Positions 17,878-28,803 of a stretch of DNA of 64,000 nucleotides are shown here, one piece after another (the stretch's first letter is position 1; each line of letters begins with the position of its first letter). The translations under genes were made by a program, and so were the position numbers. The notes below the pieces were generated by a model, which ran no database searches, had not been told where the DNA came from, and saw nothing but the letters and a program-made list of their open reading frames with translations. Where the stretch lies: positions 1,453,001 to 1,517,000 of the forward strand of contig NZ_CP051183.1 of NCBI RefSeq assembly GCF_012295615.1, in the 5' to 3' direction. The stretch is from Bermanella marisrubri. GTDB taxonomy: Bacteria > Pseudomonadota > Gammaproteobacteria > Pseudomonadales > Oceanobacteraceae.

Positions 17878-18079
17878 GGTTCGTCCTTTGATAAAAAAGC
17901 CTTCAGATTATTCTTATTGTTAGTGCGATATCCAGCATAACCTAGGGTGAATATAGGGTCTATTACGGGTTTATGACGTCGCTTTTATCAATGGCGCTGG
18001 TTTCATGTATACTCGCTGCCTATATTCGCCGCTCGTCGGCCAACCTTTATCATCGTCTTAACAGCGTTTATTAGTATCT

Positions 18080-19210
18080 ATGCTCAACGATTCCACAACC
18101 CGTCTCAATAAATACATCAGCGAAAGTGGTATCTGCTCTCGTCGTGAGGCCGATCGCTACATTGAACAAGGCAATGTCTATATCAATGGTAAGCGTGCCG
18201 AGGTTGGGGATCGGGTAGCGCCGGGTGATACGGTCAAAGTGAACGGTCAAATCATTGAACCGCAAGAGCCTGAAGATTTTGTTTTCATCGCCTTGAACAA
18301 ACCCGTAGGCATCGTGAGTACCACCGAAAGCAGCGAACGCAATAACATCGTACGCTTTGTGGGTCACAGCACTCGTATCTTTCCCATCGGTCGTTTAGAT
18401 AAAGACTCCCAAGGTCTGATCTTTTTAACCAATAACGGCGACCTGGTGAACAAGATTCTGCGCGCGGGTAACGACCACGAAAAAGAATACCTGGTGGAAG
18501 TGAACAAGCCCATTCGCGATAACTTCATCGAAGGCATGGCTAATGGCGTGCCGATTCTGGGCACCATGACCAAAAAATGTAAGGTGAAAAAAGAATCGCC
18601 TACGGTGTTTCGCATTACCTTGGTGGAAGGGCTTAACCGTCAAATCCGTCGCATGTGTGAATACTTTGGTTACGACGTGGTCGCCCTAGAGCGCGTTCGC
18701 ATTATGAATGTGGATTTGAAAGGCTTGGCCACAGGCGACTGGCGCGATCTCACGCAAAAAGAACTAAACGGCATATTCGACGCCATTAAAGATTCCTCCT
18801 CAGAAGCGCCAGCGGGACGTAAAACCACACAAAAGCGTGGTGGCAAACCGGGTGGGTCTGGACAGAATAAACCGGGCAATAAAACCAATAGTAAAAAGCC
18901 AGCGGCGAAAGCCTCAAAAAGTGGTCCTAAGCGCGGCGGCCCTCATAAAGCGAAAAAAACAAGCGGAAACCCTAATACCAAGCATCCACCGAAACCCCCC
19001 GGCGGCAAGCCATCCGGCAAGCCCAGCCCAAAAGGCAAAGCGGGTGGTAAGCCATCAGGCAAACCTATGAAAGGCGGCAAACCAAGCCCAAAAGGCAAAG
19101 CAGGCGGTAAGCCATTCGGCAAGCCAATGAAGGGCGGAAAACCCGGAGCGAAGGGAAAAGCAGGGGGCAAGCCAGCAGGAAAACCCGCTGGCAAAAAAGG
19201 GCGTCGCTAG
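18080..19210 (+). CDS. rluF: 23S rRNA pseudouridine synthase RluF with long basic tail
   Basis: A 376-residue protein. An S4 RNA-binding domain (about 6-53, [21 protein letters not shown]) precedes the RsuA/RluF catalytic domain, with the nucleophilic aspartate in GRLDKDSQG near residue 108 and the closing [15 protein letters not shown] motif. RluF modifies U2604 of 23S rRNA. The catalytic part ends near residue 240. The remaining 135 residues are a Lys/Gly/Pro/Ser repeat tail, longer than in E. coli RluF, which is about 290 residues in total. The tail likely binds RNA. The stop overlaps the convergent rlmE stop by 4 bases. Confidence 0.93.
18995..19200 (+). repeat. Coding tandem repeats in the RluF tail
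   Basis: The 3' end of rluF encodes imperfect repeats of about 20-22 residues built on the words [16 protein letters not shown] and MKGGKP. Three successive copies can be read between 19000 and 19200, with the third-position bases partly varied. The DNA is therefore a GC-rich, strongly strand-biased minisatellite that can gain or lose units. Confidence 0.75.
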
Positions 19211-19827
19211 CCCTTAAAGCCTTTGGCAACCACATACACCTCGCGCGAACGTGGGCGCGAGGCATCGGGTTTGCGAATCAAAACTTTATTAAACGAAGAA
19301 CGCACGTCTTTTAGATATTCCTCATAACCGGCACCCTGAAACACTTTGGCCACAAAACTGCCGTTTTGCTTCAAAACCTGACGGGCCATATCCAGCGCCA
19401 ACTCCACCAAATACATAGACGACGCTTGATCGGCTGCGTTCACACCACTGATGTTCGGTGCCATATCGGATACCACTAAATCCACCGGCGCGTTATCCAG
19501 CTTGGCCATGATCTCATCAAACACCTCATCTTCCGTGAAGTCCCCTTGAATGAAATCCACACCGGCCATGGCATCCATGGGCAAAATGTCCGAGGCAATC
19601 ACACGGCCTTTATCACCGACGATTGGGGCTAACACCTGCGACCAACCACCGGGGGCGCTACCTAAATCCATGGTCACCATGCCCGGGCGCACTAGCTTAT
19701 CCTTTTCAATAAGCTCAAGCAGTTTATAGCTGGCACGGGAGCGATAGCCATCGTTCTGCGCCCGTTTTACGTACACATCGTTCACGTGCTCGTTAAGCCA
19801 TTGCTTACTGCTTTTGGATCTTGCCAT
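19207..19827 (-). CDS. rlmE: 23S rRNA 2'-O-ribose U2552 methyltransferase RlmE (FtsJ/RrmJ)
   Basis: A 206-residue Rossmann methyltransferase. The S-adenosylmethionine site is [12 protein letters not shown]. The K-D-K-E catalytic set is present in [29 protein letters not shown] and SREVYVVA. Length matches RlmE (about 209 residues). It methylates U2552 of 23S rRNA late in 50S assembly. In many gammaproteobacteria this gene precedes ftsH; here the 3' neighbour is the convergent rluF, which it overlaps by 4 bases. Confidence 0.95.
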
Positions 19828-19952
19828 GGTTGAACTCTAAGTAACTGCGAGATAATGCGCTATTGTAACACTGACAAGGTGAGGGGCGAAGGGTACAATC
19901 CCCACCCAATAACCAGACCCCGTAAGATTCCGATAGCCTAGAAGTCGCGCCC

Positions 19953-20702
19953 ATGAAATTAGATGACATCAAAAAACTTCACCAGAAAAAGTATCGCAAC
20001 GAATACGGCTGCTTTTTGGTAGAAGGGGAGCATCTGATCTTAGAACTGGCCAAGGCTGCCAAGCACAACCCAGCCTTGCAAGCATCCACCGTGTACCTGA
20101 GTGAAAGCTATGGCGAGCTAGAGCAAAGCGCACTTAATGGTCTATCTCTCAAGCAAGTGCGCGTCACCGACAAGCAAATGCAAAAAATGGCGGATACCAA
20201 AACCCCGCAGGGCATCGTCGCGGTTGTGCCGTTTAATGATGAGCGAACACAACAAGCCATCGCCAGCGATAATGAGCGCACCGTCTACCTGTACGAAGTA
20301 CAAGACCCCGGCAACCTCGGTACTATTTTGCGCACGCTGGCTTGGTTTGGTGGTTTCCGCTGTGTGCTCAGCCCCAATAGCGTTGATCCTTACAACCCAA
20401 AAGTGGTGCGCGCCAGTATGGGAGCCATCTTCCATGTGCCCATCGAGCAAAATATCAGCATTGATGACATGCAAAACCGCTTTGATGAATTTGCCTGCTT
20501 GGATATCAACGGCAAACCGTTATCCAGTGAAGGCTTCAGCGAACAGCGTTGCTTTATATTTGGAAACGAAGCACGCGGCGTGCCTCACGAAGAACTGAGT
20601 AAACTGAAAACCACAGCGTATAGCATTCAAGGCGCGGGCGTCGTGGAATCGTTGAACTTAGCCACCGCCGTAAATATGTGCGCATACGAATTGAATCGGT
20701 AG
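19953..20702 (+). CDS. SpoU/TrmH-family RNA methyltransferase
   Basis: A 249-residue protein. The N-terminal 100 residues form the substrate-binding domain of TrmH-like enzymes (KLHQKKYRNEYGCFLVEGEHLI). The SPOUT domain follows, with motif 1 DPGNLGTILRT, motif 2 IFGNEARGVP and motif 3 VESLNLATAVNMCAYE. It should 2'-O-methylate a tRNA or rRNA nucleotide using S-adenosylmethionine in a knotted dimer. The specific target (RlmB, TrmH or YsgA type) cannot be fixed by eye; YsgA-like is likely from the short N-domain. Confidence 0.85.
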   Translation: MKLDDIKKLHQKKYRNEYGCFLVEGEHLILELAKAAKHNPALQASTVYLSESYGELEQSALNGLSLKQVRVTDKQMQKMADTKTPQGIVAVVPFNDERTQQAIASDNERTVYLYEVQDPGNLGTILRTLAWFGGFRCVLSPNSVDPYNPKVVRASMGAIFHVPIEQNISIDDMQNRFDEFACLDINGKPLSSEGFSEQRCFIFGNEARGVPHEELSKLKTTAYSIQGAGVVESLNLATAVNMCAYELNR

Positions 20703-21310
20703 GATTCTTTCGTCATCCTCCTGAGTTCATTCGATATTCTCCGACGTTCATTCGATATTCTCCGACGTTCATTCGTCATCCTCCGACTTGATCGGAGGAT
20801 CCACTAAGCGATCAATACAAAAAGCAACGGCGGACACTCAAATCAGACTCGCCGTAAATGCATCCGTGCAGGCTCGGCAAAAAGATCCCTCTTTTTGACG
20901 GTCTGATTTCAGTACCCACCATTGCTTTCTTTATCGTCATTCTCCGGCGTCGCGAAGCGACAGACCGGAGGATCCATTAAACGGGTTACAATGAATTAGA
21001 TGGATTCCCGCCTTCGCGGGAATGACGGTTTAGGAGCCCGTGCGGGAATGACGGTTTAGAAGCTTGTGGGAGAATGAACAATTTTCCCGTCATTCTCCGG
21101 CGTCGCGAAGCGACAGACCGGAGAACCCATTAAACGGATGACAATGAATTCCATGGATTCCCGCCTTCGCGGGAATGACGGTTTAGGAGACTACGGGGAA
21201 TGATGTTGAACTTGCCAGTGTGGGAATGACAGCTTAGTAGCTTGTAGGGGAATGAACAATTTTCCCGTCATTCTCCGGCGTCGCGAAGCGACAGACCGGA
21301 GAATCTATTA
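20703..21310. repeat. Block of REP-like palindromic repeats
   Basis: The 605-base gap between the methyltransferase and chrA is made almost wholly of repeats. A 22-base unit around TTCATTCGATATTCTCCGACG occurs twice in tandem at 20726-20770. The element CGTCATTCTCCGGCGTCGCG, continuing AAGCGACAGACCGGAG, starts at 20935, 21088 and 21266. Between them a second palindrome, TCCCGCCTTCGCGGGA, occurs near 21004 and 21157, each followed by ATGACGGTTTAGGA. Copies 2 and 3 share a longer leader (GGGAATGAACAATTTTCCCG). Spacings of 153 and 178 bases suggest serial duplication. The last copy contains the chrA stop codon. Confidence 0.88.
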
Positions 21311-22441
21311 AGTAGTCAAAGCAAATCGAATTAAACTCGCCACAATCGTAATGGCAATGAGCCACAAAATCTTCAAGCCCACAAACTTCAACAACGCATA
21401 ACCCGCGACTACCCATGCAAAATCCAATGGCGACATCACACTGCTCGTAAAGATCGGGTTGTAAAGCGTGGCACCCAACAAACCCACCACGCTAGCATTA
21501 ATCGCCATCACCATATTATTGATGCGATTATGATGGGAAAGGTTATTCCAAAGCTTATGGAACGTCAGCAACAACAAAAAGCCCGGTAAGAAAATACCCG
21601 CCGTTGCCAATAGCGCACCCAAAACCGGAGACTCATGACTTAACGCGCCCAAGAAAGTAGCAAAGGTAAACATAGGGCCAGGGATCGCCTGCGCCGCCGC
21701 ATAACCCGTAATGAAAGCAGACTCACCCACGCTGGCCGCAAAATAATCTTGTAATAAAGGTAATACCACATGGCCGCCACCAAATACCAAACTACCGGCG
21801 GTATAGCTCTGATTAAAAATAGGATTTAGCGGAATAAACAAAAACGCCACAAAGATCGCACCAAAGATCCAGGCGGATTTTGGCACCTTCCATTCAACAT
21901 TGTTGCTCGCTTCAGCCTGTTGCGATAAACCAATGGCCGCCGCAACAGCAATACAAATCAACGGAATATAAGCCACCGGCGCGAGCAACACCGCAATGGC
22001 CGTGGCCACCGCAATCAATTGCTTGGTTTTGGTATTGCAGAAGTTTTTACCCATGCCCAAAACCGCATCCAACACCACAACCACAGCCAACAACTTAAAA
22101 CCATGAATGATGCTCTGTAACCAATCCTGCTCAGAAAGCTGAATAAAGCCCATGGCCAACACCAGCATCATCAAAAACGAAGGCAGCGTAAACGCCACAA
22201 ATGCAATGATGCCGCCCAATAAACCCATGCGATTTAAACCAATGGCAAAACCCACTTGGCTTGAACCCGGGCCCGGTAAAAACTGACTTAAGGCCAGTAA
22301 TTTGCCGTACTCATCTTCCGTCAGCCATTGCTTCTCTTTCACAAAGCGCTGATGAAAATACCCCAAATGGGCAGCAGGCCCACCAAAGCTCGTGCAACCC
22401 AAAACAAAAAACGTAGCAAACAAAGACAGTGCTGATTTCAT
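21308..22441 (-). CDS. chrA: Chromate-transporter-family (CHR/ChrA) membrane protein
   Basis: A 377-residue protein with about ten membrane segments in two homologous halves. The N-half has FGGPAAHLGYFHQRFV and LPGPGSSQVGFAIG, the C-half FGGGHVVLPLLQDY and AIPGPMFTFATFLGAL. These duplicated GGGH/PGP motifs define the two-domain (LCHR) CHR superfamily. It probably exports chromate; other anions have been suggested for some members. The stop codon lies inside a REP-like repeat, so repeat insertion may have reset the C-terminus. Start at 22441 is the first in-frame ATG. Confidence 0.9.
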   Translation of the reverse strand: MKSALSLFATFFVLGCTSFGGPAAHLGYFHQRFVKEKQWLTEDEYGKLLALSQFLPGPGSSQVGFAIGLNRMGLLGGIIAFVAFTLPSFLMMLVLAMGFIQLSEQDWLQSIIHGFKLLAVVVVLDAVLGMGKNFCNTKTKQLIAVATAIAVLLAPVAYIPLICIAVAAAIGLSQQAEASNNVEWKVPKSAWIFGAIFVAFLFIPLNPIFNQSYTAGSLVFGGGHVVLPLLQDYFAASVGESAFITGYAAAQAIPGPMFTFATFLGALSHESPVLGALLATAGIFLPGFLLLLTFHKLWNNLSHHNRINNMVMAINASVVGLLGATLYNPIFTSSVMSPLDFAWVVAGYALLKFVGLKILWLIAITIVASLIRFALTT

Positions 22442-22620
22442 AGCCGTAATCGTTCAATCGTGAGTAAAAGATGGCGGCTATGATAGCAAGAATGAGACAG
22501 GATGAAAGATGGGTTTATGAGGCTCAATATTATATTCAACAAGACAGCTGTGAACTATACTCGCTGAGAAAACCGACTAAGTGCCGCCCAGTGTGGATAC
22601 CCAATTAACAAGGACTAGAA

Positions 22621-23217
22621 ATGCTCAAATACTTAATCAATAAACTAAGTACCGATCTATATGTTCAAATTTGGGAAAATAGGATCAAGGTTACCGATAT
22701 TCGTACATGCAAGGTTTTTGACGAAGCCCCTTTATTAGCTACCAGAACAGAAAAGGGCGGGCGTAAGGTAGTTGTGGCAGTAGGCGATGAAGTAAACAAA
22801 ATACCTTCTAATGAAAATATAGAGATCACAAACCCTTTTTCCCATCCTCGCGCATTACTAAATGACTTTTTTGTGGCAGAAAAGCTCCTTCAATACATCG
22901 TTCGAACACTCCTTGGCAAAAAATGGATATCACCTTCACCTAGAGTGGTTATTCATCCAATGGAAAAAGACGAGGGTGGTTTAACGATGATAGAGCGTAA
23001 AGCTTTCAGGGAACTAGCCCTAGGAGCAGGAGCCCATAAAGTTGTTCTGTATCAAGGCCGAGCATTGTCAACGGCACTATTCGATTTTGAAAAAATAAAA
23101 AAAGAAAATGAAGAACCCACCTCACATCAAATTGAATCAAGCAATGAGAATGTCTTAAGCATAGTGATTATTGTTGTGCTGCTTTTAGTAATGTTTTGGT
23201 TCTCGGGGGCTAAATAA
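22621..23217 (+). CDS. Truncated MreB-like protein with C-terminal membrane anchor
   Basis: A 198-residue protein with an AAGGACTAGAA site before its ATG. Residues 1-150 follow the start of MreB: MLKYLINKLSTDLYVQI where MreB has the Asp-Leu-Gly-Thr-Ala phosphate loop, then VVVAVGDEVNKI, NDFFVAEKLLQYIVRTLLGKKW, SPRVVIHP and ERKAFRELALGAGAHKVVL. The DLGTAN nucleotide loop is absent and everything after subdomain IA is missing. Residues 176-195 are a single hydrophobic helix (LSIVIIVVLLLVMFWF), a tail anchor. It cannot bind nucleotide as MreB does, but could cap or tether MreB filaments at the membrane. That role is inference. Similarity was judged from memory. Confidence 0.7.
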   Translation: MLKYLINKLSTDLYVQIWENRIKVTDIRTCKVFDEAPLLATRTEKGGRKVVVAVGDEVNKIPSNENIEITNPFSHPRALLNDFFVAEKLLQYIVRTLLGKKWISPSPRVVIHPMEKDEGGLTMIERKAFRELALGAGAHKVVLYQGRALSTALFDFEKIKKENEEPTSHQIESSNENVLSIVIIVVLLLVMFWFSGAK

Positions 23218-23292
23218 CGGCAAAGCATTATTTCATGGCATCTGACCCCCTAGCTACTATCCTAAACTGAAGCAGGCATGTAAGAGGTCACC

Positions 23293-24354
23293 ATGCGTTT
23301 CAGTTTTGGCATTCAAACTACCGCCCCCAAATTAATAGCAGCACTAACAGCAATACTATTATTAGCCCTAACTGGCTGCGGCAGTGACTCAAGCAGTAAT
23401 GATGATGTCGACGAAGAAACCACTCTAACGCTAGAAGAAGCCATCCCACAATGCAGTGGTGACCCATGGGAAAACTTCTCGGTATCGTCCATCAGTGCAC
23501 CATCGCCCAATTCCCAAGCCTATGTAGTGCCCGCCAATGCGCAACGCACCGCCATCACCAATTCACTCAATGCCTTCTTTGATGCCTCATACGAATCCGC
23601 CGTAAGCCAAAGTACAGATGCCGCCTATGACATCTGCCATATGGAAAGCACAATCGGGCCATTAGTCTTTTGGTATCCACAAACCGCAGGGGAAGGGCAC
23701 GCCCGTTGGGTGATCAGAGCCAGCGATACGGCAACACCTTTAATGGTCCAAGCACCCCATAGTTTTTTTGAATCCCACACCATGCAGCAAGCCGTGGAAA
23801 TCTTTACCGATTTAAACGCCAGAGCCGTCATTGTTAATGGTGGTCATCGCTGTGCCAATACAGGGTACTCAAGCTGCTCGGGCACAACATCGGTTTGTGG
23901 TGAAAGCGAGCCTTTTCGTGAATCCGACATGGCCCATGTAGTGGACTCCTTTTTCCAAGTCGTTCATCAAACAATTGCCCAAGCCTATACCGATGTATTA
24001 ACCATCAACTTACACGGCATGAGCCGAGACGGTTTTAGTCTATCCAACGGGACAACCAACGACACCAATGCACAAAGCCCAGTGGCAAAACTCTATACTG
24101 AATTAATAAACGAATTTCCTAATGAAACTGTCACAATATGCAATGCATTTGATTCTATAACTGCCACGAATCACTTATGCGGAACCACCAATGTACAAGG
24201 GCGTTTTTTAAACGACTCCACCAACGCCTGCACAGCTTCCGCATCAATCGCCTCTGATCGCTTTATTCATATAGAACAAAACCTTTCAATTCGTGAAAGT
24301 GAAGCCAATAGAGATAAAATCATTAAAGCTTTAGGTGTCATGCTGAGTCGATAA
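23293..24354 (+). CDS. Lipoprotein, unknown; possible metal-dependent hydrolase
   Basis: A 353-residue lipoprotein (lipobox ALTGC, cysteine 29) with a Ser/Asp-rich linker GSDSSSNDDVDEE. The body has several His/Glu clusters: MVQAPHSFFESHTM, IVNGGHRCANTG, INLHGMSRDGF and FIHIEQNLSIRES. These resemble metal-ligand patterns of N-formylglutamate-amidohydrolase or poly-gamma-glutamate-hydrolase-like folds, but I cannot assign a family with confidence. Six or more cysteines suggest disulfides in the periplasm or outside. An AAGAGGTCACC site precedes the ATG. It is the last ordinary gene before the cassette cluster. Confidence 0.65.
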   Translation: MRFSFGIQTTAPKLIAALTAILLLALTGCGSDSSSNDDVDEETTLTLEEAIPQCSGDPWENFSVSSISAPSPNSQAYVVPANAQRTAITNSLNAFFDASYESAVSQSTDAAYDICHMESTIGPLVFWYPQTAGEGHARWVIRASDTATPLMVQAPHSFFESHTMQQAVEIFTDLNARAVIVNGGHRCANTGYSSCSGTTSVCGESEPFRESDMAHVVDSFFQVVHQTIAQAYTDVLTINLHGMSRDGFSLSNGTTNDTNAQSPVAKLYTELINEFPNETVTICNAFDSITATNHLCGTTNVQGRFLNDSTNACTASASIASDRFIHIEQNLSIRESEANRDKIIKALGVMLSR

Positions 24355-24716
24355 CAAACGGATCTGAAATTAATTATTAATTGAAATACATGCTTACTAA
24401 GCCGAAGTGTTTTTGGTAATGCGAATCGGGCCGCATATCACGAAATATCATTGAGCTGGCAAAGTCAATGATCAGGGGGCTTACAGGCATCTGTACACAA
24501 GACCATTGGATTATGCGGCCCTGTGGATGAGTTATGCGAACCGGCGTTCCAAAAAGAAAATTACCATGGTATCGTTGTGGATAACATTAACCCGGCTAAT
24601 GGATATAGCGGTAACTCATTGAGAAGAAAGGGAAATTCAATCCCACCTCCAAGCCGCATATAGTTTATTAACAGTATCTAGGCCGTATAACACGCTGTTA
24701 TAACTCAGGATAGATC
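24355..24716. other. Gap before the cassette cluster; no gene, cassette boundary at the right end
   Basis: No convincing gene lies in these 362 bases. A 63-codon frame without a start (ending near 24663) may be a gene remnant. An inverted repeat pairs GGGCCGCATA (24428-24437) with TATGCGGCCC (24512-24521). At the right end TATAAC (24686-24691), five bases, then GTTATA (24697-24702) form a palindrome that resembles the two outer core boxes of an attC collapsed together, so 24697/24698 is the likely left boundary of the first cassette. No integrase gene is present. Confidence 0.5.
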
Positions 24717-25175
24717 ATGAACGAATCTGAGAAAAAGATAATAAAAAATATCGAAGAATATGGCTGCCATGTAACCTCGGTCTTTGATCCAGAAGAAAAA
24801 GATCCTGATTTCACTTATTCCATTGGGATTCATAAGGTAGAGAGTCAGCCAGAATTAATTATTCTTGGCTTACGGCATGAACTAAGCTCTTGGATTGTTA
24901 ATGAATATAACCGAAGAATAAAGGAAGGCGAGAGGTTTGTACCTGGCGAGTACTATGAAGGCTTTATCGAGGGATTTCAGATTACCTTTCAAGAAGTAGC
25001 AGATAAATATAAAGAAGAGTTCATGTTATCGTGCAATTGGCTTTATGGCAGCATTAACTACCCTGTTATGCAGCTGATATTCCCTAGTGTAAAAGGTGTT
25101 TGGCCATGGGAAAAAGAAGCAAGCGAAGGCTTTAAAAAACTTCAGCCTAGCTTTCAAGAAAAAGTTGCATGGTAG
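24717..25175 (+). CDS. DUF4262-family protein (cassette 1)
   Basis: A 152-residue protein with an AGGA site 6 bases before its ATG. The pattern I-x-x-x-G-C-H-V-x-x-V, DPDFTYSIGIHK, QPELIILGLRH, F-VPGEYYEGF is that of DUF4262, small cytoplasmic proteins of unknown function often found in cassettes or near toxin-immunity loci. Tryptophan- and glutamate-rich C-terminus (GVWPWEKEASEGF). The stop codon abuts the attC at 25176. A cassette gene with no promoter of its own in sight. Confidence 0.8.
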   Translation: MNESEKKIIKNIEEYGCHVTSVFDPEEKDPDFTYSIGIHKVESQPELIILGLRHELSSWIVNEYNRRIKEGERFVPGEYYEGFIEGFQITFQEVADKYKEEFMLSCNWLYGSINYPVMQLIFPSVKGVWPWEKEASEGFKKLQPSFQEKVAW

Positions 25176-25290
25176 TTATAACAAGCGCAAGCACATCAGG
25201 ACTGCCAACTGCTTGCGCCTTTTGGCATGGCTTCGCCATTATATGCCAAAAGCCACAATCAATTGTCAGCCCGTGTTGCGGGCGTTATGA
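25176..25290 (+). repeat. attC site of cassette 1
   Basis: The left box TTATAAC (25176-25182) and right box GTTATGA (25284-25290) bound 115 bases. Inside, GCGCAAGCA pairs with TGCTTGCGC and TTTTGGCAT pairs with ATGCCAAAA. Near the right end CCCG and CGGG pair just before the GCGTTATG core. The start codon of cassette 2 overlaps the right box. Confidence 0.8.
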
Positions 25291-25751
25291 GTAAAGTCAT
25301 GTATCCGATCACACCTACAAAAGCATCTGAGATCAAGGAGGGAGAATATTTTTATATCCCTCTAAATGATGGTCGTTTTGCATGTGGGAGAATTCTTCTA
25401 ATCGAAAAGAAAAACGGTAGAAAGACTAAATTGCTATTGGTCGGATTGCATGATTGGTCTGGTAGCAAGCACCCATCACAAGTTGACATTCATGAGTGCC
25501 CAATCATTGAACAAGGGGTTCTACATATTAATTCAATAAGCCATGTGGGGGGTGAAATCATAGGCTTTAAGCCTTTGCAGGAAGATGGCTTAAAGCCCTT
25601 TTTGCAAGTTGAGGCTGGCTATCTTCTGGATGGTTTTGAAAACCTTGGTAGTATTCCTTCAGAAGAATATTGTAACTACACCCGTAGAACGACTTACGGG
25701 TTAAATTCTATAAGTTTAAAGGCCAACAAATATTTTGCTAAAAACTCATAA
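25287..25751 (+). CDS. Imm26-like protein (cassette 2)
   Basis: About 154 residues from an ATG within the attC right box (25287), or 150 from the ATG at 25299. The opening segment KEGEYFYIPLNDGRFACGRIL matches the first strand pair of the Immunity protein 26 family, which neutralises polymorphic toxins. A later GGEIIGFKPLQEDGLKPFLQ motif supports it moderately. No partner toxin lies nearby, so here it would be an orphan immunity or housekeeping-like cassette. The stop TAA is part of the next attC box (CATAAC at 25747). Confidence 0.6.
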   Translation: MSKVMYPITPTKASEIKEGEYFYIPLNDGRFACGRILLIEKKNGRKTKLLLVGLHDWSGSKHPSQVDIHECPIIEQGVLHINSISHVGGEIIGFKPLQEDGLKPFLQVEAGYLLDGFENLGSIPSEEYCNYTRRTTYGLNSISLKANKYFAKNS

Positions 25752-25837
25752 CAAGTCAATCAACTACGCGCCTACGGCGCCGGAGAGAGCTCACCCTATA
25801 AAGTAGACGCCTATCTAAACCAAAAGGTAGGTCGTAA

Positions 25838-26197
25838 ATGCCAAAAATACTCAGCCCAGAGCGAGTCATTGAGTACTCTGTAGAATTTAAAATCAGAGTA
25901 ATCAAACTTACATTTGAACTCGATGTAAAAGCCATGGATATCGCTAAGGTTCTCAATCTTCACCCAATGATGATTTATCGATGGCGACAGGAGTATAGAG
26001 AAGGTAAGTTTGTAGAAGAGCCTTCAAGAAGAATTAGTATGACTAAAGAGACATCTACGCCTAAGGAAGATCGAGACAAAGACGATGAGATCAAGCGTCT
26101 TAGGAAAGAATTGGCAGAAGCAAAAAAGGAAAATGACTTTCTAAAAAAGTGGGATCGGTATCTGAAGGACCAAAAGAATTCCGATTTAGATTCATAA
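25838..26197 (+). CDS. IS3-family transposase OrfA (helix-turn-helix part)
   Basis: A 119-residue protein. Residues about 14-55 are a helix-turn-helix (EFKIRVIKLTFELDVKAMDIAKVLNLHPMMIYRWRQEYREG), followed by a Lys/Glu leucine-zipper-like helix (DDEIKRLRKELAEAKKENDFLKK). It binds the inverted repeats. The gene overlaps orfB by 49 bases; the fused OrfAB transposase would come from -1 frameshifting at the A6G run. Confidence 0.9.
   Translation: MPKILSPERVIEYSVEFKIRVIKLTFELDVKAMDIAKVLNLHPMMIYRWRQEYREGKFVEEPSRRISMTKETSTPKEDRDKDDEIKRLRKELAEAKKENDFLKKWDRYLKDQKNSDLDS
26143..26149 (+). promoter_or_regulatory. Programmed -1 frameshift site AAAAAAG
   Basis: The codons AAA AAG of orfA (residues FLKK) sit in A-AAA-AAG, the standard IS3-family slippery heptamer. 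Slipping back one base gives the next codon GTG at 26149, the first codon of the orfB frame. The fusion joins ENDFLKK to VGSVSEGPKEF without a gap. Confidence 0.85.
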
Positions 26198-27036
26198 AAG
26201 ATCATCGCGAATATTTTGGTGTCAGATACCTTTGCCGGAAACTTTTTGTATCATTTTCTGGTTTCTATAAGTGGTTAAGTCGGCCTGTAGAACTAAAATC
26301 GGATAAGAATGATGAGCTCACCCGCTTAATTAAGAAGATATTTGAGAGGCATGAAGGGAACTATGGAAGCCCTAGAATTCATCGTGAATTAGTGAATTTA
26401 GGGCTGGTTGTTAATCATAAGCGTGTTGCAAGAATTATGCGGGAAGAGCGGTTGATAGCTAAAGCGGCGAAATTGTACCGTAGGAAGGCATTGCCGGATA
26501 ATTCATGTATAACTGTTGGGAACCTTAGACATAATATTCCGCCACCATCTGGTCCTAATCAGCAGTGGGCAGGTGATGTTAGCTATCTTAAAGTCAACGG
26601 CGAATGGATTTATTTATCCGTTATTCTAGATCTTTACTCTCGGAAGATAATTGGTTGGTCATTGAGTAGAAACAGGACTACTGAACTAACTTTGCAATCA
26701 TTGGATATGGCGATTGAATCGAGACAGTTCGAGCCTGGATTGATTTTTCATAGTGACAAGGGTGCTGAATATGGCGCGCATGTTTTTCAAAATAGACTTC
26801 GATCATCTGGGATAAGGCCGAGCATGAATCGTCATAAAACAATGACGGATAACATTCACGTGGAATCATTCTTTCGTACATTTAAGACGGAAGTGTTCCA
26901 TGGTGAAATTTTCGAAGATGCAGAGCATCTCCGTGATGTCACGAAATGGTATCTGGAGGATTATTATAACTGTGTTCGAATGCATACTTCGTTAAACTTT
27001 AAATCACCAGTGCAGTATGAAAGAATGGCTGCTTAA
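26149..27036 (+). CDS. IS3-family transposase OrfB (DDE integrase domain)
   Basis: A 295-residue frame with the HTH_21 region (HEGNYGSPRIHRELVNLG) and the rve integrase core. The catalytic triad is present: D in WAGDVSYLKV, D in FHSDKGAEY and E in HVESFFRTFKTE, with the closing EDYYNCVRMHTSLNFKSPVQYE. It appears intact, so the element may still be active. Translation is expected mainly as the OrfAB fusion. Confidence 0.92.
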   Translation: MGSVSEGPKEFRFRFIKDHREYFGVRYLCRKLFVSFSGFYKWLSRPVELKSDKNDELTRLIKKIFERHEGNYGSPRIHRELVNLGLVVNHKRVARIMREERLIAKAAKLYRRKALPDNSCITVGNLRHNIPPPSGPNQQWAGDVSYLKVNGEWIYLSVILDLYSRKIIGWSLSRNRTTELTLQSLDMAIESRQFEPGLIFHSDKGAEYGAHVFQNRLRSSGIRPSMNRHKTMTDNIHVESFFRTFKTEVFHGEIFEDAEHLRDVTKWYLEDYYNCVRMHTSLNFKSPVQYERMAA

Positions 27037-27138
27037 TATGAATCAGTATAAGCGTCTACTTTTAGGGGTGAGCTCTCCTGTCGCTCCACAAAACGGCCCG
27101 TTACGCCGGCGTTATATCTCAAGGGATGCTAAAGATAT

Positions 27139-27669
27139 ATGAGTCATAAAGTACAAATCTACCCACATAATGACCTTTTCAATCTCGCGTATTATCAACT
27201 TGGAGTGATTAATAAAAAGGTACAAGACGGTATCGAAGATGCTGTTGGACTTGATTGTATGAGCTGTTTGATCTCGTTAGCCTTTACAACAGAGGCGTTG
27301 GTTAATTTCATCGGTAAAAAAAGAGTTCAACGATGGAAAGAGCGAGATTTCTACAAAAGCAAGATGGAGAAAGTTTGTGCGCAAGCTGGTGTAGCTTTTA
27401 GTAAGCATACAGAGCCCTATAAAACGCTATGGGAACTAAAGGAACTACGAGATTCAATTGCTCATGGTAAGCCTGTTGAGCTTCAAACCGAAATAAAAGA
27501 TAGAGATGAGTTGCGAAAAGCCATGGAGTGCGAGTGGGATAAAAAGCTAGTCCCAGATTATGTGAATTCAGCCTATGATCAAGTAAAAGAGTTTGAGCGA
27601 CTATTGTTTGAAAACTGCAAAATATCAGTAGGTGAAACAATTACATCGGCTGTTCTTTTACCGAAATGA
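27139..27669 (+). CDS. HEPN-like protein (cassette 3)
   Basis: A 176-residue helical protein. The segment LKELRDSIAHGKPVEL (R104, H109) is the R-x4-H motif of HEPN nucleases and related HEPN folds. Helices before it (LISLAFTTEALVNFIGKK) and after it (VPDYVNSAYDQVKEFERLLFE) give the four-helix bundle expected. Many HEPN proteins cut RNA in defence or toxin-antitoxin systems. No MNT-type nucleotidyltransferase partner is adjacent, so it is either a single-gene system or non-catalytic. The cassette begins at the attC GTTATAT box (27111). Confidence 0.6.
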   Translation: MSHKVQIYPHNDLFNLAYYQLGVINKKVQDGIEDAVGLDCMSCLISLAFTTEALVNFIGKKRVQRWKERDFYKSKMEKVCAQAGVAFSKHTEPYKTLWELKELRDSIAHGKPVELQTEIKDRDELRKAMECEWDKKLVPDYVNSAYDQVKEFERLLFENCKISVGETITSAVLLPK

Positions 27670-27670
27670 G

Positions 27671-27729
27671 ATATAACAATAACATCAAGATCGCCTTCAA
27701 GCTGCGCCCCCTTATGTAAGGCGTTATAA
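27671..27729 (+). repeat. attC site of cassette 3 (short)
   Basis: The left box ATATAAC (27671-27677) and right box GTTATAA (27723-27729) bound only 59 bases, the length of the classic 59-base element. The right half reads AAGGCGTTATAA. Inner pairing is weak (GCGCCC with a GGCGT segment). Confidence 0.72.
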
Positions 27730-27745
27730 GGAGTAATCGTAGATA

Positions 27746-28567
27746 GTGAATTTTGAAATTGATGGAATACTAGAGTTTGAAGATTCTTTTCATGAAGAGT
27801 GGGAAAAGGAAGCTGAAAAATTTATTCCTGTATTATGTGGTTCAGATTATCTCCATACGGCTTCAGCGTTAGTAGGATTAACAGCGAGTATTACGTCTAT
27901 AAAACTTGGAATCTATGCGCTGGCTGAAGATTGCGAAACCAATCTATATCCTGCAAAAGTTTTACATAGAACATTAATTGAGCATTACCTAAAATTTAAT
28001 TATATTTTGGCAAGGTTTCTAACTGAAAAGACTGATGAGGTAGGCTATGAATACATTAAGTACATGTGCATTAGTGAGGCATTGTCATATATAAAGGCCT
28101 CTGATGTTGCGAAATCTATGCTCGGCACTAGCACAGATTCACAGGTCTTGAAAAAGTTAAAAAAAGAACACCCTGAATTGAACATTAGCCAGAAAGAGCT
28201 TGGAAGAATAACTTCAAAATGGAAGCACCGGAGTATAATTAGGTATCTTAAGGGTAACCCATCAAGTTTAGGTGGTGACAATAATTACCTTCTTAAATTA
28301 ATTCCTGAGTACGCCGAGCTTTCGAGTTTTATACATGGTGGAAGGTCTGCCGAAGAATATTGCCATGGACAATTTGAACATGGTCTTGCTAAAGAAATGT
28401 ATATAGAAGTTGCTGAAACATGCTTTCTTTCAAACTCAATAAGAGTTCATTTAATGTTAGCGGCCATAGAAGTTGATGATCAGTTTGTAACTGGAATGGT
28501 TCGCCTAGCTCAAAAGATGTGCGAATTTATTGATAAATACCCATTTCACCCAGATCAGCTTAAATAG
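27746..28567 (+). CDS. DUF5677-like helical protein (cassette 4)
   Basis: A 273-residue protein starting at GTG 27746, with an AAGGAG site 12 bases upstream that belongs to the attC right box region. It is nearly all helical; LYPAKVLHRTLIEHYLKFNYILARF and PEYAELSSFIHGGRSAEEY (His 197) resemble DUF5677, a family of unknown function found in mobile and defence-rich DNA. The match is from memory and moderate. No signal peptide or membrane helix. The stop codon is 9 bases before the last attC. Confidence 0.6.
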   Translation: MNFEIDGILEFEDSFHEEWEKEAEKFIPVLCGSDYLHTASALVGLTASITSIKLGIYALAEDCETNLYPAKVLHRTLIEHYLKFNYILARFLTEKTDEVGYEYIKYMCISEALSYIKASDVAKSMLGTSTDSQVLKKLKKEHPELNISQKELGRITSKWKHRSIIRYLKGNPSSLGGDNNYLLKLIPEYAELSSFIHGGRSAEEYCHGQFEHGLAKEMYIEVAETCFLSNSIRVHLMLAAIEVDDQFVTGMVRLAQKMCEFIDKYPFHPDQLK

Positions 28568-28575
28568 ATGGCAGC

Positions 28576-28672
28576 TCATAACAAGTGGCAGCAAACGACC
28601 GTCAAAACTGTCACTTAAATTACTGTCGCAATTACGCGCCAGTTTTGCCGGCGGCTGTGCAAGGCGCTAGGT
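28576..28672 (+). repeat. attC site of cassette 4, with altered right core
   Basis: The left box CATAAC (28577-28582) is intact. The middle pairs CAAAACTG (28603-28610) with CAGTTTTG (28640-28647). The right end is AAGGCGCTAGGT where GTTAGGT is expected, a T-to-C change at the second position of the crossover triplet. It closes the cluster. Confidence 0.65.
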
Positions 28673-28759
28673 CAGCTTGAAAATACTATTGAAATTCACC
28701 GCACATTTTATTGTATTGGTCTCTCTTGTCCCGTTAATTTAGATTTTTTAACCAAAACC

Positions 28760-28783
28760 AAAAAAGCCCGCACTATGGCGGGC
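28760..28783 (-). terminator. Terminator of ompW
   Basis: On the minus strand GCCCGC, 6-base loop, GCGGGC is followed by CTTTTTTGG. The stem lies at 28766-28771 and 28778-28783, about 70 bases after the ompW stop. Confidence 0.85.
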
Positions 28784-28803
28784 AATCCAGTCGAACTTCT
28801 GGT

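Follow-up and report, generated by a model that had tools for sequence, protein, structure and literature searches.

A membrane-tailed half-MreB gene in Bermanella marisrubri and its apparent kinship with Escherichia coli YjaA

What is left of a bacterial actin when its nucleotide site and its second domain are gone, and what might such a protein do at the membrane? The question is raised by a short gene in a 64,000-nucleotide stretch of Bermanella marisrubri DNA (the window, whose numbering is used below). The open reading frame occupies positions 22621–23217 of the forward (+) strand, as do all features of the gene described here; it starts with ATG, specifies 198 amino acids and is preceded, 6 nt upstream of the start codon, by AAGGA (22610–22614), a likely ribosome-binding site. 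Its product corresponds to MreB domain I (subdomains IA and IB) followed by a C-terminal hydrophobic helix, while domain II and the nucleotide-site residues are missing; we refer to the gene as a half-MreB gene of the tail-anchored form.

The protein has a single Pfam match (up to E 10), to MreB_Mbl (PF06723), covering residues 31–145 with 36.3 bits (E 3.6e-9), above the cut-off of 27. All five matches in a sequence search of the PDB (up to E 1) are MreB, among them that of C. crescentus [3.2e-7]. The protein scored 62.7 bits against a profile built from seven MreBs, on which none of 2000 shuffles of the same sequence exceeded 4.3. Together with the Pfam and PDB matches this makes the similarity real and far beyond chance, and the descent from MreB proposed in the initial annotation, which had suggested a search with an MreB profile, is confirmed. 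Relatives of the protein comprise long forms, like our own, and short forms of the YjaA type. A profile of the long forms matches that of MreB with 99.2% probability (E 2.3e-19), the match stopping at MreB column 140. The scores of curated MreB families are not reached (TIGR00904, 34.4 bits with a cut-off of 365.75; PRK13927, 39.3 bits with a cut-off of 293). We consider descent from MreB, and a domain I architecture, to be almost certain.

A structure prediction, likewise suggested earlier, agrees with this. The AlphaFold2 model, for which nine native sequences of the family were aligned as input, has a pLDDT of 84.4 and a pTM of 0.73, and that of a second, tail-less family member (86.5 and 0.82) contains much the same elements. 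The best 25 rows of a Foldseek search of the PDB with the first model are all MreB or Mbl. VIA-align ranks an integrative Mbl-MreB model first (Z 18.1), and T. maritima MreB follows with a Z of 17.1 and an rmsd of 2.4 Å over 147 residues; MamK (Z 13.4) and the actins (Z about 12) lie below MreB. The best rows for the second model are again MreB or Mbl, with Z up to 17.8. The MreB-like part had been taken for subdomain IA: IA is indeed there, but not alone, for the model keeps the whole of domain I. By alignment and model the IB segment comprises residues 31–70 (22711–22830; approximate borders) and is mostly absent from the short YjaA-type forms. Towards the other end of the domain, both models have a helix at residues 156–163 (23086–23109) that seems to close subdomain IA. 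Where the alignment runs out, at model residues 155–166, the MreB chain has likewise reached its C-terminus (residue 164 lies opposite 333 of 1jcf, for instance); helix 156–163 appears to replace the C-terminal helix of MreB, a closure read from the range ends that the alignment tool gives as its only output. Apparently, then, the protein is a self-contained domain I (IA+IB) from which domain II has been removed.

The losses are extensive. Residues 16–21 (22666–22683) read QIWENR where MreB has its phosphate-binding loop, DLGTAN, and in the alignment Asp16, Gly18 and Asn21 are found in none of 34 family proteins as against all of 52 MreBs, so that on this point the initial annotation was correct. 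The catalytic glutamate (E140 of C. crescentus MreB) falls in a gap opposite residues 142–144 (EEP) of E. coli MreB, and the hinge is deleted. Domain II is absent together with the second phosphate loop and, with it, the residues that contact RodZ and FtsZ, as given in a passage of PMC5624674; the missing part also includes the longitudinal contact S283/S284 named in a passage of PMC4051119. With the DLGTAN loop, the EEP hinge and domain II gone, it is very unlikely that the protein binds ATP or polymerises in the ordinary way.

Three elements could bring this protein to the membrane. The membrane tail of the initial annotation is present, as a predicted transmembrane helix of residues 173–196 (23137–23208; model and hydrophobicity) whose hydrophobic segment, 178–196, has a mean Kyte-Doolittle value of 2.86 and stops two residues before the end of the protein. 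The tail anchor is atypical, a minority trait found in six of 37 family members (5/36 plus one, at locus L126, recognized later); in L008, which is cut by a contig end, this part of the protein lies outside the sequence. GspL of type II secretion also combines a degenerate actin-like cytoplasmic part with a transmembrane helix, which is followed by a periplasmic domain; our protein resembles it in having an actin-related part and a membrane helix, but ends two residues after the latter. Profiles of the GspL/PilM type are not among the five NCBIfam matches listed for it (up to E 10), a search whose filters can drop weak matches. The second element is an N-terminal amphipathic helix like that of Gram-negative MreB (residues 2–9, 22624–22647; a helix in the model), with a hydrophobic moment of 0.70. 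Values are 0.55–0.92 in the long forms and 0.44–0.76 in seven MreBs; the helix is weak in the short forms (0.16–0.62), a point that speaks against our main reading given below. The third is the pair W102-I103 (22924–22929), which aligns with F103-M104 of the hydrophobic membrane loop of E. coli MreB (numbering verified against the K-12 gene), a loop whose role is described in part of PMC4051119. Of 28 family proteins, 26 have at least two large hydrophobic residues in this loop, as do six of the seven MreBs examined. Held by the two elements kept from MreB and by its tail anchor, the protein would quite probably have its active place at the inner membrane.

The flat face of MreB is also retained. 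F83 (22867–22869) aligns with the flat-side residue F84 of E. coli MreB, the role of which is given in an excerpt of PMC5624674; 33 of the 34 family proteins have Phe there. In model and alignment, residues 123–135 (22987–23025) form the counterpart of the MreB dimerisation helix (alpha-3), I124 corresponding to V121 of the E. coli protein. Position 124 is hydrophobic in all 34 family proteins and Val in 52/52 MreBs, and E125 (E122 of E. coli MreB) is found in 34/34. According to passages of PMC4051119, the change V118E in C. crescentus MreB results in single protofilaments, and E. coli MreB carrying V121E does not restore rod shape. The small toxin CbtA has been placed on the flat face (part of PMC5624674), which implies that a small protein is able to control MreB from there. 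CbtA, unlike our protein, is the toxic half of a toxin-antitoxin pair, and the two are likened only by their proposed site of action. Part of the alpha-3 helix may be conserved purely for packing, which counts against a role in pairing.

The initial annotation knew of no described function for a protein of this form, and in this it overlooked a relative. The best NCBIfam match is to NF041448, the YjaA family stress response protein (65.9 bits, E 3.6e-18); as the cut-off of that family is 125 bits, our protein is a sister and not a member of the curated subfamily. E. coli YjaA (b4011) has the same core and the same E-G-G-L motif; at 127 amino acids it lacks most of IB, as the short forms do, and the tail, both of which are present in the B. 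marisrubri protein. A profile of the short forms, YjaA included, matches that of the long forms with 99.9% probability (E 7.9e-35) and that of MreB with 97.2% (E 2.9e-11), and YjaA is recovered at 1.2e-15 by a profile made from long forms only, as against 0.21 for the best among 2000 shuffles. A Pfam search with YjaA alone returned no match to MreB, and on the profile of seven MreBs it scored 14.6 bits (best of 2000 shuffles, 6.5), so that its link to MreB rests mainly on intermediates and profiles. A search of 28 family proteins with an MreB profile reported 26, the exceptions being two short forms (L038 and L046). From these comparisons E. coli YjaA appears to be a half-MreB as well. Its gene (L052, 5235–5618) serves as a marker in phylogroup typing; of 5426 complete genomes of E. 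coli, 2583 carry it.

A tree was calculated from 21 long and 13 short family proteins, 34 in all, together with 52 MreBs, all of the latter proteobacterial. Broken or cut copies (L009, L019, L048/L057, L058, L083) were left out, as were L013 (the same contig as L006) and L049 (a chance match); L126 was found afterwards. In the unrooted file one branch, of length 1.40 and label 100, separates the family from the MreBs; the re-rooted print carries 87 on the family clade and the value of 100 belongs to the branch leading to MreB. Eleven of the 13 short forms group together (78), and YjaA and one other short form are placed elsewhere (68, weak).

A passage of PMC3050900, citing earlier work, has both YjaA and YodD involved when cells respond to H2O2, cadmium and acid, and similar stress annotations of YjaA appear in parts of PMC13313352 and PMC4906195. 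In mainly open-access literature we found, among the matches listed, no paper treating YjaA and MreB as related proteins, none on a half-actin regulating MreB and none for "truncated MreB" in combination with further terms; the one text listed that names both YjaA and MreB has them as separate table entries. Matches listed for YjaA and actin included none whose title or opening of the abstract was about the YjaA protein itself, and the portions of the literature examined give no molecular mechanism for it.

Our main reading, to which we give a probability of roughly 0.4, is that of a membrane-bound, nucleotide-free half-actin that would pair with MreB or with itself and tune filaments. Presumably unable to polymerise or to hydrolyse ATP, such a protein could use its retained flat face (F83 and the alpha-3 helix with I124) to pair sideways with MreB protofilaments; alternatively, its partner may be a second copy of itself, in a small antiparallel dimer. 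Sideways pairing would block or cap the antiparallel pairing of MreB locally and so tune wall growth. The setting would probably be envelope or oxidative stress, as suggested by the statements on YjaA alone. The filament cap, tether or regulator of the initial annotation is still plausible, and we would narrow it to a regulator that pairs sideways. Direct action on MreB we put forward tentatively, at a little under even odds. It seems rather doubtful that half-actins are in general a separate class of mobile, membrane-bound MreB regulators which pair with the flat side and switch double filaments off, with YjaA as a member ready for laboratory work and its stress phenotype arising through control of MreB. 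The kinship offers yjaA a structural origin and a mechanism that can be tested; if our main reading is true, bacteria carry natural half-actins that regulate MreB.

The strongest rival accepts the ancestry and dispenses with the partner. It supposes a stand-alone, neofunctionalised protein whose domain I scaffold now serves for binding or sensing at the membrane, through a new site made up of R77 and the E-G-G insertion, and which no longer contacts MreB. While the family shares with MreB the domain I fold, the amphipathic helix, the membrane loop and the alpha-3 face, it differs not only by its losses and, in some members, by the tail anchor, but also by residues of its own. R77 (22849–22851) is invariant (34/34), and residues 113–120 (PMEKDEGG, 22957–22980) contain a four-residue insertion relative to MreB, PMEK, before an EGG in which G119 and G120 are each found in 34/34 proteins and E/D118 in 32/34. 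In all 52 MreBs the alignment is empty opposite R77 and the insertion. Since the strictest invariants of the family include residues that are absent from MreB, they fit a changed function and form the main argument for this rival, and the long branch in the tree and the short forms lacking most of IB favour the same view. Against it, the pairing positions 124 and 83 and the membrane loop would not have to be so well kept in a protein that had left MreB behind. We regard it as possible, at odds clearly below even, and retain pairing through the flat face as our main reading.

The half-MreB family is patchy and mostly gammaproteobacterial, its shorter branch including E. coli YjaA. With membership judged by the length of the open frame, members are present in at least 16 of the 390 genomes searched in the order, at least nine of 369 of the class (two cut or broken) and at least 13 of 398 of the phylum (one with an internal stop); among the phylum matches one member lies outside the class, in a genome that is 57% complete. 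All 16 member genomes of the order have a second match, but as 383 of the 390 genomes have some match, co-occurrence with MreB is uninformative. The genome's own mreB is about 640 kb from our gene, which, like the lack of conserved neighbours described below, counts against our main reading. The one genome of the same genus that was searched contains no family member, and a genome of the same taxonomic family carries a tailed copy in a different setting. Same-family synteny, sought through the adjoining chromate transporter gene, was among the ideas set aside; eight of 13 genomes matched that gene, the other seven at 39–49%. Among ten loci, several of them on short contigs, no neighbour is common to our gene and any of nine relatives, and one other gene family recurs, in two loci only; the gene therefore seems to travel alone, and an operon partner was rejected. 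Carriage by plasmids was likewise discarded: 20 matches in a plasmid collection are 28.9–32.4% identical, as MreB itself is, and those annotated are MreB or rod shape-determining proteins, with the exception of one short match of 44.4% in a Salinivibrio record. Carriage by phages was dismissed as well, no relative being confirmed in viral contigs; four matches in a phage collection are 28.6–36% identical and three of them are annotated as MreB.

Our gene borders a region of low GC (22500–28800, 0.36–0.46 in 600-base windows), within which GC rises to about 0.50 over the ORF at 23293; at 18000–21300 the values are 0.48–0.54. The low-GC region holds DUF4262, Imm26, an IS3-type element, a weak HEPN-like match and DUF5677. 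An integron cassette is not supported for the B. marisrubri copy, as the window has no attC-like GCGTTAGNC. The Marinimicrobium relative (L006, 1–9570) is found among small accessory genes and three GGCGTTAGCC sites (0.08 expected) of the attC motif, and its locus looks like an integron cassette array.

Such surroundings, an accessory gene of patchy occurrence beside Imm26, DUF4262 and an IS, with one relative in a cassette-like array, might suggest a decoy or immunity factor that imitates the flat face of MreB and so titrates toxins or phage proteins directed against MreB, the more so as part of the CbtA-binding face is kept (excerpt of PMC5624674). We consider this improbable. PADLOC and PHROGs searches with the ORF gave no match, no viral relative was confirmed, and YjaA is reported in chemical stress. 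Four of six substitutions that disrupt CbtA binding (V173, D192, E196 and E262; passage of PMC5624674) fall beyond the retained part. That the gene is merely a functionless, decaying fragment of mreB is barely credible: there are internal stops in a copy from genome G703, one in L083 (genome G934) and a broken frame in L009, but the family is coherent over many genera, has invariant residues and a single origin in the tree, and shares new features not expected from decay.

Family copies that are interrupted, frame-broken or start-less are those at L083, L009, L019 and L048. Another tailed half-MreB, at L126 (691–1258), adjoins a pair of genes which by eye we take to be ParE/ParD-like. A search for RNA features between 18000 and 31000 of the window gave none at the gathering score. 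Upstream of our gene are two copies, 86% alike, of a 116-nt direct repeat (21018–21311) with smaller units of the type AATGACGGTTTAG. The IS element (25785–27077) has two ORFs, the second with integrase-core matches, and is bounded by 30-nt inverted ends (25785–25814 and 27048–27077) which are 87% complementary.
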